A stretch of 64,000 nt of DNA. It comes from Bacillota bacterium (lineage in GTDB: Bacteria > Bacillota > Dethiobacteria > DTU022). Below, piece after piece: positions 27,775 through 59,974 of this stretch. Within the stretch, counting starts at the first letter, position 1; each line of letters starts with the position of its first letter. Made by a program: the position numbers and the translations under genes. A model generated the notes under the pieces. The model was given only the letters and a program-made list of their open reading frames with translations, had not been told where the DNA came from and did no database searches. Location: contig JAWSUE010000006.1 of assembly GCA_033549065.1 (NCBI GenBank), positions 62,001 to 126,000 of the forward strand, written 5' to 3'.

Positions 27775-29217
27775 ATGTTTAAGCACTGGAAAGGCAGCAA
27801 CCTTAGAGTTCTTTCCGAAAAAGATATCACTGCAATCCATGAAGCAACAGTGAACCTGTTAGAAAATACCGGAATTAAAATGCATAATGATCGCGCCAGG
27901 CAAATTTTTTCTGATCACCATGCGAAGGTGGATCATGATAATCAGATCGTAAAAATTCCCCGGTCGATGCTTGAAGAAGCTATTGATTCAACACCTTCTT
28001 CGTTAGTCCTTTGCGGAAGGGAAGAGAAAAATGACCTTATTCTTGAAGGTGCCAATGTATACTTAGGAACCGGGGGAACCGTCCTCAACACACTCGATCT
28101 TGAAAATGGCAGGAAGCGTCTTACTGAGGTTAAAGATGTGGCAGGTTATGCAAAGCTGGCAGATGCTTTAGATAATATTGCTTTTTTTGTAATCAATTGC
28201 TACCCCAGCGATGTTAAAACAGAAAATGTTGATATTAATCGCTTCTATCATGCGCTGGCCAATACTTCAAAGCATGTGATGGGTGGCATCTACACCATGG
28301 AAGGTTTACTGGCAGTGATCGAAATGGCAGAACAGATAGCCGGTGGATCAGAAAAACTGCGCCAACGCCCCTTTGTCTCCTTTATTACACTAATGATGAG
28401 CCCACTAGTTATGGAAGTAACCTATACCGATTTTTTAATTGAAATCGCCAGAAGAGGTCTCCCCGTAGCCACTCCCTCAGAACCTCTGGCCGGGGCGAAT
28501 TCACCGGTTACCCTGGCAGGAACGATCACTTTAAATAATGCAGAATCGCTGGGTGGACTTGTTCTGGCGCAACTGGTGAACAAAGGCACTCCGACAATCT
28601 ATGGATCAACATCCAGTATCATGGATATGCGCACCGGGACCTATATGGCTGGAAGTATTGAGTCAGCTTTGATAAACGCCGGATGCGCTCAAATGGCCCA
28701 ATATTATAAAATACCTGTTTATGGTACAGGCGGCATGTCCGATTCAAAAGTTGTTGATGCCCAGGCCGGTTATGAAAGCGCAAACACAGCGATGGTGGTG
28801 GCTCTTTCAGGATGCAACTACATCCACGATGCATTCGGTCTTCTGGAATTCTGCACAACTCTTTCCTATGAAAAAATGGTTATTGACAACGATTCCGTTG
28901 GTATGATTCTTCGGGCTGTTCGTGGTATAAAGGTCGACAAGGAAACTATCGCAAACGAAGTTATTTCAGATGTTGGTCCGGGAGGTCATTTTCTGGATCA
29001 CCCCCACACGGTCAAACATGTCCGGGAAGAGTTTTATTTTCCCCGCCTCTCCGACCGACAGCAGCGCAGCGTATGGGCTGAAGAAGGCTCGAAAGATACA
29101 TTCGAGAGAGCACGTGAAAAAGCAAAAGAGATCCTTGCCGGCCAAAAAGCACCGGGATTTTCTGAAGACCTTGAAAATCTTCTATTTTCCAGGAACAGGG
29201 GACTAAAAAAACTTTAG
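27775..29217 (+). CDS. MttB-family (non-pyrrolysine) quaternary/tertiary amine methyltransferase, copy 1
   Basis: A 480-residue member of the trimethylamine methyltransferase (MttB/MtgB) superfamily, which transfers a methyl group from an amine to a corrinoid protein. Shared family blocks: VYLGTGGTVLNTLDLENG, AGANSPVTLAGT and a GPGGHFLDHPHTVKH C-terminal block. The frame is read through with no in-frame amber codon, so it resembles the non-Pyl enzymes for glycine betaine, proline betaine, carnitine or butyrobetaine rather than trimethylamine MttB. AAAGGAG precedes the ATG. It is followed after 18 bases by a paralogue and then by an OpuC-type transporter. The methyl donor is unknown. Confidence 0.9.
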   Translation: MFKHWKGSNLRVLSEKDITAIHEATVNLLENTGIKMHNDRARQIFSDHHAKVDHDNQIVKIPRSMLEEAIDSTPSSLVLCGREEKNDLILEGANVYLGTGGTVLNTLDLENGRKRLTEVKDVAGYAKLADALDNIAFFVINCYPSDVKTENVDINRFYHALANTSKHVMGGIYTMEGLLAVIEMAEQIAGGSEKLRQRPFVSFITLMMSPLVMEVTYTDFLIEIARRGLPVATPSEPLAGANSPVTLAGTITLNNAESLGGLVLAQLVNKGTPTIYGSTSSIMDMRTGTYMAGSIESALINAGCAQMAQYYKIPVYGTGGMSDSKVVDAQAGYESANTAMVVALSGCNYIHDAFGLLEFCTTLSYEKMVIDNDSVGMILRAVRGIKVDKETIANEVISDVGPGGHFLDHPHTVKHVREEFYFPRLSDRQQRSVWAEEGSKDTFERAREKAKEILAGQKAPGFSEDLENLLFSRNRGLKKL

Positions 29218-29235: not shown

Positions 29236-30684
29236 TTGTTAAAAGGTACCTATGCAAACTTCTATCAACCTCTTTCCATAAATGATATAAAGGCTATACA
29301 CGAAGCTTCCATGCAGGTACTATCCAAATCCGGATTGCTTATTGATAATAAAAGAGCCCTGCAGTTATTTCATGAAAAAGGTGCTCGTGTGGACTTCACC
29401 CACAAACTGGTTCAACTAGACGAGGATTGGGTGATGAAATACTTAAATAAGGCTCCGGCAAGGATTACTTTATATGGACGGGATGAGAATAATAATCTTG
29501 TGGTTGAACCGAACCGAGTTTATTTCGGCACCGGGGGAACGGCATTGAATATTCTTGACAGAAAATCCGGTAAGCGCAGACCTTCAGTTTCCAGTGATAT
29601 TGCCGATATAGCCCGTCTCGTTGATGCTCTGCCAAATATTCACTGGTATTGTTTACCATTATATCCGAATGAATGCCCCAAAGAAGAAGTCGATATTGCC
29701 AGGTTTTATCACGGTTTGAAGAACACCGGCAAACATGTTATGGGTGGCATTTACGGTGGTAAAGAAGGAGCCAGGGATGTGATCCGGCTTGCTCAAATAT
29801 TCGCCGGCGGTGAAGAAAATCTGCGGAATAATCCCTTGATCTCTGTTATATGCAGTACAATCAGCCCTTTAAAGATGGACACCCGCTATGTTGATTTTAT
29901 CTTTGATCTTGTTAATGCAGGAATTCCTATTGCTACTTCCTGTGCACCCATTGCCGGTGCCACCGCACCGGTTACCCTTGCCGGCAGTCTGGTCCAGATA
30001 AATGCGGAGGCTATTTGCGGCATATTATTGACCCAGGTTATTAAAGAAAGCGCTCCTGCACTTTACAGCACTGTTCCCACTACTGCAAACATGAAAAACA
30101 TGGATTTTCTCTTCGGGGCGGTGGAAAACGGTATTATGAATGCGGCCTGTGCGCAGCTGGCTTCCTTTTACAACCTGCCTATGTACTCAACCGGTGGAGT
30201 TACCGAGTCCAAAATTTTCGATATCCAAAACGGTTATGAAAAGTGTATGAATAACCTTCTGCCGGCGATAGCCGGAGCTCAGCTGATACATAATGCAGCC
30301 GGTCAAATCGATAGTAGTATGACAGTCGCCTATGAACAATATGTCCTCGATGATGAAATAATTGGTATGGCCCTTCGTGTAATGGAGGGAATTCGCATCA
30401 CTTCTGACACCCTTGCATTGGAAGAAATATGTAAAGTTGGCCCGGGTGGCAACTATCTGGCATCTGATCATACCGTAAGAAATATGCGCCATGAACTCTT
30501 TATGCCAAAAGTCGCAGTTCGGACAAATTATGCAGCCTGGTTACGAGAAGGGAAAAGGAATGCTATCGATTTTGCCCGCGAAATAACCGATCAAATATTA
30601 GAAGATCATTATGCTCAATCGCTGCCTGAAAATACGGAGAGCGAAATTTTTATGAATTACCCGTTTCTGAAAGAAGGTGAATGA
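29236..30684 (+). CDS. MttB-family (non-pyrrolysine) methyltransferase, copy 2
   Basis: Paralogue of the preceding gene, with the same block order: VYFGTGGTALNILDRKSGKR, IAGATAPVTLAGS and VGPGGNYLASDHTVRNM. The frame opens at TTG 29221, but GGGAGG at 29223-29228 points to TTG 29236, giving 482 residues starting MLKGTYANFYQPLS. No amber codon interrupts it. Two adjacent diverged copies suggest two related substrates, or a heteromer. Neither a cognate corrinoid protein nor a corrinoid:tetrahydrofolate methyltransferase is in the window. Confidence 0.9.
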   Translation: MLKGTYANFYQPLSINDIKAIHEASMQVLSKSGLLIDNKRALQLFHEKGARVDFTHKLVQLDEDWVMKYLNKAPARITLYGRDENNNLVVEPNRVYFGTGGTALNILDRKSGKRRPSVSSDIADIARLVDALPNIHWYCLPLYPNECPKEEVDIARFYHGLKNTGKHVMGGIYGGKEGARDVIRLAQIFAGGEENLRNNPLISVICSTISPLKMDTRYVDFIFDLVNAGIPIATSCAPIAGATAPVTLAGSLVQINAEAICGILLTQVIKESAPALYSTVPTTANMKNMDFLFGAVENGIMNAACAQLASFYNLPMYSTGGVTESKIFDIQNGYEKCMNNLLPAIAGAQLIHNAAGQIDSSMTVAYEQYVLDDEIIGMALRVMEGIRITSDTLALEEICKVGPGGNYLASDHTVRNMRHELFMPKVAVRTNYAAWLREGKRNAIDFAREITDQILEDHYAQSLPENTESEIFMNYPFLKEGE

Positions 30685-46926: not shown

Positions 46927-47366
46927 TAAGCAGACCCTGACATTGTTCGCTCCGGGGTTTTGCACTGCTTATCCACTTATACGGATGCTTTAAACCTTGG
47001 CTCACGTAAGCTCGCTGCAGGCTTACAGCATCCGCATTATTGCATGCTTGCTCTGGTTTTAAGCAAACGAACCAACCTGAAGCAGGATAAGCAAACCCTG
47101 ATACTGTAAGCGACATTAGCATGAGCGGTTAGAATTACCGGTGAGTCGAAATAAAGTTGTCAGGGGACACATAACCTTCGGTCAATATGTCCCCATACGT
47201 ATTATGCCTCTCCGGAATGATTAATACTGCTTCAGCTTTCCGGAGAGGCAGACCGAGGCCGGAGACTTAAGTGTCGACTGTTGAGGCTGCCCGCTGAAGC
47301 TTGAAGGCGAACCGGCATTAATTCTCCGCGAAATGATCCGGAGCGAACTGTATCAGGGTCTTCTTA
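46927..47366 (+). repeat. Dispersed structured element, copy 1 (modules A and B)
   Basis: A 440-bp non-coding element filling most of the 579-base gap between two convergent genes. Its ends are 29-bp imperfect terminal inverted repeats (46927-46955 and 47338-47366, 25 of 29 matching). Module A (about 46927-47086) forms a bulged helix, GGATGCT...AGCATCC with GTAAGC...GCTTAC inside. Module B (47125-47329) is described separately. A direct internal copy of the end sequence lies near 47085-47108, between the modules. A hairpin GGGGACA...TGTCCCC (about 47163-47194) is absent from copy 2. No transposase frame is present. Flanks 46869-46926 and 47367-47447 hold nothing I can name. Confidence 0.85.
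47125..47329 (+). ncRNA. Candidate structured RNA, module B, instance 1
   Basis: Closing helix: GCGG (47125), AGAATTA (47131-47137) and CCGG (47138-47141) pair with CCGG (47312-47315), TAATTCT (47319-47325) and CCGC (47326-47329). Inside is a perfect 13-bp hairpin (47205-47217 with 47238-47250) whose 20-base loop contains ATTAA and CTGCTTCAG. A conserved 36-base box (47251-47286) and a small GCC...GGC hairpin follow. Transcription has not been shown. Confidence 0.55.
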
Positions 47367-55540: not shown

Positions 55541-55631
55541 CTGCAGCGTGCTTACGTGAGCCAGGGCTTACAACATCCGTATATATATGGATCATCAGTG
55601 CAAATCTCCGGAACGAACAGGATCAGAATCT
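55541..55631 (-). repeat. Dispersed element, solo module A (copy 3, inverted)
   Basis: About 90 bp that align, as reverse complement, with the left part of copy 1 (46931 to about 47021): the module A GTGAGCCA...GGCTTA arm, CATCCGTAT, GCAGTGCAAA and the end-repeat CGGAACGAACAGGATCAG. Module B is absent. It lies in the 206-base gap between the AI-2E gene and nth. Confidence 0.75.
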
Positions 55632-59266: not shown

Positions 59267-59459
59267 TCCATCCTTATTCCTGAATCCTCAATCAATCTAA
59301 AACTTTAATCCCTGGTTCACGATTATCGTCTTACACCTGATTTGATAACCAATTTACGCTACTCTTTATCAGCAGACTCCGATACTGTTCGCTCCGGGGT
59401 TTTGCACTTCTTATCCACTTATACGGATGCTGTAAGCCTTGGCTCACGTAAGCTCGCTG

Positions 59460-59639
59460 AGAATTGCTGCGGCTTAACTGCAGCCTTCCAAGAGAAACCT
59501 CGACAGTCGACACTTAAGTCTCCGGCCTCGGTCCGGTCTTTAAAAAACCTGAAGCAGAATTTAATATTTTTAATGACCGGATCTCTTTATTCGCTTTGTT
59601 TCGCCGGCAATTCTAGACCACTCGCTTAATGATTCGCTG
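59460..59639 (-). mobile_element. Nested inverted module B (instance 3) inside copy 2
   Basis: Read on the minus strand this carries AGAATTG (59608-59614) pairing with CAATTCT (59460-59466), a 14-bp hairpin with one mismatch (59567-59580 with 59533-59547), the loop ATTAAATTCTGCTTCAG, and the 36-base box at 59498-59533, which is 35/36 identical to the box of instance 2. TCGCTG at 59454-59459 and 59634-59639 may be a target-site duplication, since copy 1 has only one such site at this place. Confidence 0.6.
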
Positions 59640-59745
59640 CAGGCTTACAGCACCCGCCTTATTGCATGCTTGTTATGTTTTAAATAAATAAACCAACCTG
59701 AAACGGGATAAGCAGACCCTGATACTGTAAGCGACATTAACATGA

Positions 59746-59911
59746 GCGGTTAGAATTACCGGTGAGCCGAAAGAAGAAGCGGTAAATGCCTCTCCGGAAT
59801 GATTAATACTGTTTCAGCTTTCCAGAGAGGCAGACCGAGGCCGGAGACTTTAGTGTCGACTGTCGAGGCTGCCTGCTGAAGCTTGAAGGCGAACCGGCAG
59901 TAATTCTCCGC
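59746..59911 (+). ncRNA. Candidate structured RNA, module B, instance 2
   Basis: Same layout as instance 1. Closing helix GCGG/AGAATTA/CCGG (59746-59762) with CCGG/TAATTCT/CCGC (59894-59911), a 13-bp hairpin with one mismatch (59787-59799 with 59820-59832) and loop CTGTTTCAG, then the 36-base box at 59833-59868. Confidence 0.55.
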
Positions 59912-59974
59912 GAAATGATCCGGAGCGCACAGTATCAGGTTCTGCTTATACGATAAAATATCTTGAATGGATGA

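Follow-up and report, generated by a model that had tools for sequence, protein, structure and literature searches.

The two copies of the A/B repeat found in our window differ by 180 bp, a difference which most likely reflects a deletion in an element related to the TwoAYGGAY RNA (RF01731). The window is the whole stretch of 64,000 nucleotides that was analyzed; it lies within contig 6 (C6) of a draft Bacillota genome (2.39 Mb, 61 contigs). The A/B elements would be small mobile repeats of about 220–280 bp which code for no protein, with a terminal inverted-repeat stem around a conserved, branched, RNA-like core. The full A element of copy 2 would be the ancestral form. In copy 1, or in its ancestor, replication slippage between the two TCGCTG repeats which flank the core hairpin would have deleted 180 bp and joined both terminal repeats; the direction and the mechanism of this deletion are what we infer. 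It is well established that slippage can take place across a hairpin with short direct repeats at its sides (PMC4134008), and the event in copy 1 is an ordinary one: a short-repeat deletion within a foldback element. More interesting than this event is the element itself, a divergent TwoAYGGAY-like RNA fold inside MITE-like repeats.

The difference between both copies can be read directly in their sequences. Copy 2 contains TCGCTG twice, at 59454–59459 and 59634–59639 (plus strand), with a spacing of exactly 180, while copy 1 contains it once, at 47012–47017 (plus strand), the inferred deletion junction. An earlier note on this DNA had described the 180 extra bases and the two repeats versus one, and its coordinates and size are exact. 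When copy 2 is joined across TCGCTG, its alignment with copy 1 is almost gap-free. The note took the extra piece for an inverted module B. This piece is 92–94% identical to the A cores found at C6:50 kb and C2:61 kb, and 79–84% identical to B over the alignable positions. It is therefore A's own interior, and it is homologous to B, with the opposite orientation: The orientation and the homology to B hold, the description as a B copy does not.

Both copies are composites of several modules. The full-length A of copy 2 (59425–59655, minus strand, about 231 bp) has the terminal inverted repeats GGATGCTGTAAGCC / GGCTTACAGCACCC, it aligns end to end with the elements at C6:50 kb and C2:61 kb, and its DNA fold has a z of -4.3. 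Its RNA-like core, with a TwoAYGGAY-related fold, is found at 59458–59632 (minus strand) by R2, a model built from 20 copies of other genera only (64.0 bits, E 6.6e-15). In copy 1 the corresponding short A (46983–47033, 51 bp) consists of both A terminal repeats without the core. The B element of copy 2 (59710–59947, plus strand) has the terminal repeats AAGCAGACCCTGATACTGT and a DNA fold z of -6.8; its core lies at 59734–59909 (plus strand; R2 53.8 bits, E 3e-12). Sequence comparison places B of copy 1 at 47089–47365 (plus strand). Its core (47113–47327, plus strand) contains a 40-nt extra hairpin, and it is detected by R2 (29.1 bits, E 8e-6) and by R1, a covariance model of the window's type (96.6 bits). 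An outer left arm precedes A in both copies: at 46928–46982 (plus strand) in copy 1, where comparison shows that its start resembles the inverted right end of B, and at 59370–59424 (plus strand) in copy 2, with 92% identity to copy 1 over 89 bp. A decayed fragment at 55544–55631 (minus strand) contains the outer left arm and the left end of A, its form being ambiguous: The tail scores 4 against the short A and 3 against the full A.

Searches with copies 1 and 2 detected further copies at C6:50.1–50.7 kb, C2:61.4 kb, C2:69.5 kb, and C2:88.7–89.0 kb. At C6:50 kb there is a full A with TCGCTG twice. A standalone A is found at C2:61377–61603: It has its terminal repeats and its core, and each junction carries the internal repeat, TCGCAG at one and TCGCTG at the other. 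Standalone A and standalone B sit in intergenic DNA. The modules are reshuffled among copies in varied combinations: A may be full, short, or absent, B is found with or without the 40-nt hairpin, and the outer arms may be present or not. A is wholly absent from the copy at C2:88 kb, and B at C2:69 kb is turned relative to the right-hand arm, as compared with C6:50 kb and copy 2. We have considered whether A had never entered C2:88 kb, which would make this a true empty site. The locus is explained at least as well by a deletion between ATGCTT repeats, because the empty-site reading splits the inverted repeat unevenly. All copies detected in this genome are found in two of its 61 contigs (C2 and C6), about 16% of the assembly. 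A more divergent copy near a contig end, at C6:152713–152888, has different terminal repeats and is a third lineage in the genome.

The comparison of their sequences shows that A and B are two subfamilies of one element. When A, B, and a copy from another genus (JAUWPV01, Bacillota MAG CSMAG_2485) are placed on the same strand, they are co-linear over about 220–232 nt. Outside the core, all three have the left flank (CTGTAAGC) in common (shuffle p 1e-4, 4.5e-4, and <5e-5), and the right flank shows a weak similarity (p 0.02–0.12). The co-linearity extends across the left TCGCTG junction at least, and it includes the terminal stem. A consensus fold of eight sequences has 55 pairs, 23 of them with a compensatory change, a result which none of 500 shuffles reached; the covariation is 0.386, whereas shuffles give 0.192 and sliding the partners gives 0.080 at most. 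With 89 copies, compensatory changes are found in 44 of 47 pairs, and covariation is 0.429 versus 0.154 in shuffles and at most 0.064 in the slid controls, figures which should be read bearing in mind that this alignment was fitted to the covariance model. On the modelled strand there are 174 G-U pairs versus 94 A-C mismatches. As an indication only, this excess points to RNA, and to a functional sense lying on the minus strand in A and on the plus strand in B; the core may act as RNA. Loop-loop pairing in the window copies was judged by eye and is not conserved. Of 81 copies, 78% have flanking inverted repeats above the 95% level of the controls. The ends of A and B are terminal inverted repeats without a transposase gene, a MITE trait.

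The A/B family is, from sequence and fold models, homologous to the TwoAYGGAY RNA. The original description (Weinberg et al. 2010, PMC2864571) presents TwoAYGGAY as probably RNA and not cis-regulatory, from Clostridiales, gammaproteobacteria, and gut samples, and it was later proposed as a CsrA-binding RNA (PMC4333381). R2 links both families through a homologous core fold: It detects A and B in the window, with E values down to 5e-17, and of 30 RF01731 loci which were fetched independently it matches 12 at E<0.01. In a relative of the same bacterial family, one locus (L105, the same place as L182 below) matches RF01731 with 47 bits, the Rfam cut-off being 43. R1 gave no match when searched directly against the RF01731 loci, so the link to TwoAYGGAY rests on R2 and on this single Rfam hit. 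Rfam scans of the window and of the genome's own copies gave no RF01731 match at the curated cut-off or up to an E of 5, and the window copies thus fall short of the 43-bit cut-off for membership. None of nine copies in this genome has AYGGAY or ANGGA loops, and the pair of AYGGAY hairpins is lacking in them. Two AYGGAY motifs are found in 12 of 16 copies of a related genome (G021). Since these motifs are absent from the genome's own copies and occur twice in many related ones, the former are divergent homologues and not strict members. They share with TwoAYGGAY the branched core, the many copies per genome, and the flanking inverted repeats. On the other hand, the window copies differ in their loops, have a longer first hairpin, and are missed by the RF01731 model. 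Of 398 genomes of the phylum, 50 contain RF01731 itself, in many cases with several copies; six candidates per genome were scored, so these counts are lower bounds. Long flanking inverted repeats exceed the control 95% level in 26 of 27 RF01731 loci (96%).

A search with R1 found copies in 15 of the 71 genomes of the order, this one included, and all of them belong to one bacterial family; strict filters were used, so that absences are soft. About 80 further copies were found in 14 related genomes with the covariance model. Some genomes have many copies by R1: 17 in G021, 14 in G033, and 11 in G027. In the latter, many related copies in contigs C56, C77, C87, C89, and C116 are found about 270 bases or less from a contig end, which would be expected of repeats that break the assembly, and copy numbers are probably underestimated. 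No relatives were found in the viral contigs, plasmids, and phages searched.

The best signs of mobility come from one related genus (G031, G034, and G060), where the elements are MITE-like, with 230–239 bp and both ends beginning with GTNNYTGCTCAGCC. In this genus, 7 of 15 elements have 8-bp flanking duplications matching at 7 or more of the 8 positions, compared with 1% of swapped controls. Some examples are ATCGAAAA, TATAAAAA, and AAATTTTT. The targets are A+T-rich, which is accounted for by the swapped control. An automatic search for 8-bp duplications in all 64 flank pairs gave a mild excess only; the signal is clear only in this genus with well-defined ends. Among the RF01731 loci, one (L250) has a convincing 8-bp duplication, and the window's own copies have no clear target duplication. 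An orthologous locus of two congeneric species (L182:460–690 of G008 C200, and L137 of G021 C165) has the element in opposite orientations between homologous flanks; flipping the element raises the alignment score from 97.5 to 341, which suggests an inversion across the terminal repeats. The window's elements may have moved in the same way as their relatives. The enzyme which moved them would be encoded elsewhere. Pattern searches of this genome and six related ones, the latter incomplete, found no transposase between matching ends, a search for GTNNYTGCTCAGCC ends gave nothing beyond elements of this kind, truncated copies, and gene sequences which match by chance, and the flanks of the genome's seven Y1 transposase loci show no meaningful similarity to the ends and flanks of A/B in four copies. 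IS66, with its 8-bp duplications and GT-type ends, may be a candidate mobiliser, as a tentative lead only.

Under these circumstances, how did the short A originate? Most likely, the segment at 46983–47033 is an internal deletion between the 6-bp repeats at the foot of the hairpin. B and the copy from another genus have the same terminal repeat next to their core, which would be unexpected if the core had been inserted into a short A, so the short form is best read as A minus its core. Similar shortened derivatives of the same architecture are found in relatives: L205 (90 bp, with a possible target duplication matching at 6 of 8 bases), L210 (about 75 bp), and L230 (about 145 bp). The earlier note proposed instead that module B inserted into module A, a mobile core thus entering a pre-existing short A and duplicating its 6-bp target, TCGCTG. 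The exact repeat at both ends of the extra piece, present once at the other locus, agrees with this proposal, as do the boundaries of the core model (59458–59632), which nearly match the extra piece. We nevertheless consider it very unlikely. The 180 bp belong to the full A, which is whole at two other sites of the genome; the piece is A-type and not B-type, and the 174 bp between the TCGCTG repeats have no inverted ends of their own. The homology of A, B, and the other-genus copy crosses the left junction at least and reaches the terminal inverted repeat. In the related genus, the clear target duplications are 8 bp long and are located beyond the terminal repeats. This genome shows no core which lacks them: The isolated A (C2:61 kb) and the isolated B (C2:69 kb) start and end with their own inverted repeats. 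The deletion between the two TCGCTG sites, which the note had named as the outcome that would count against it, is the better explanation. Part of its wider suggestion survives, that B moves alone and that A/B elements are composites: A and B are found by themselves as well as nested within composites, and the unit has mobile relatives.

Against the direction we propose for the deletion, copy 2 might also owe its full A to recombination between copies. According to this possibility, the short A would be ancestral in the composite with outer arms, and copy 2 would have regained its full A by recombination or gene conversion with, for example, the A at C6:50 kb. Both A elements are 94% identical, modules are reshuffled in varied combinations, and among the few loci with the outer left arm only copy 2 is clearly full (copy 1 has the short form, that of 55544 is ambiguous, and A is absent at 88 kb). 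An earlier deletion would still be needed to create the short form, and the fragment at 55544, which might have supported this alternative, is ambiguous. We think it rather unlikely. It is also improbable, a little more so, that the elements are not mobile now or in recent times, being RNA genes or repeats spread by duplication and recombination only. The window copies without target duplications, the lack of a transposase with matching ends in our searches, and the confinement of this genome's copies to C2 and C6 would fit such a situation, but not the seven exact or near-exact 8-bp duplications of the related genus, the standalone A and B in intergenic DNA, or the many dispersed copies per genome. 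Deletion within a mobile element is the reading we prefer, and it carries a practical lesson: Where an additional segment forms a hairpin, the short direct repeat around it is not necessarily a target duplication.

The A/B elements resemble bacterial MITEs and other small foldback repeats such as ERIC/RU-1 (reviewed in PMC10969869 and PMC2229807). They are short and protein-free, with inverted ends, many intergenic copies, and internal-deletion derivatives, and related copies carry 8-bp target duplications, as in MITEs. Unlike them, the A/B elements have as their interior a strongly covarying RNA fold, which is conserved even as the ends vary and which has homology to a catalogued RNA family. 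REP/BIME mosaics with RAYT transposases also combine palindromic units mosaically; this genome has seven Y1_Tnp genes, and the 40-nt GGGGACA hairpin lies within three B elements. Nevertheless, the flanks of the Y1 transposase genes are unlike the A/B ends, and inverted ends with 8-bp duplications, as found in the relatives, are not RAYT-like.

As a tentative generalization, TwoAYGGAY might be the structured core of non-autonomous mobile elements widespread in Bacillota. Its outer stem would serve as their terminal inverted repeat, and the core, folded as RNA or as single-stranded DNA, might aid its own mobility or protect the host gene context. An orphan RNA family, catalogued since 2010 without a known function, would gain a testable identity as the conserved interior of small mobile elements. 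In the open-licence literature naming TwoAYGGAY we found no statement of its mobility, which is no proof of novelty. The proposal of CsrA binding (PMC4333381) can be tested against lineages like this one, in which the fold is kept and the GGA loops are lost.

A few other features should be mentioned. The 40-nt hairpin (GTCAGGGGACACAT...ATGTCCCC at 47159–47194, plus strand, in B of copy 1; in general GTTGTCAGGGGACACAT...ATGTCCCC) has the same insertion place in three B elements (window 47159–47194, C6:50348, and C2:69675) and is found nowhere else in the genome. It resembles hairpins beside RAYT genes. An FMN riboswitch (L035:1390–1539) is found just past the C2:88-kb element. Two PYLIS_3 (RF02510) matches in the window, at 28735–28834 and 30199–30298, point to pyrrolysine-containing methyltransferase genes of the mttB type.
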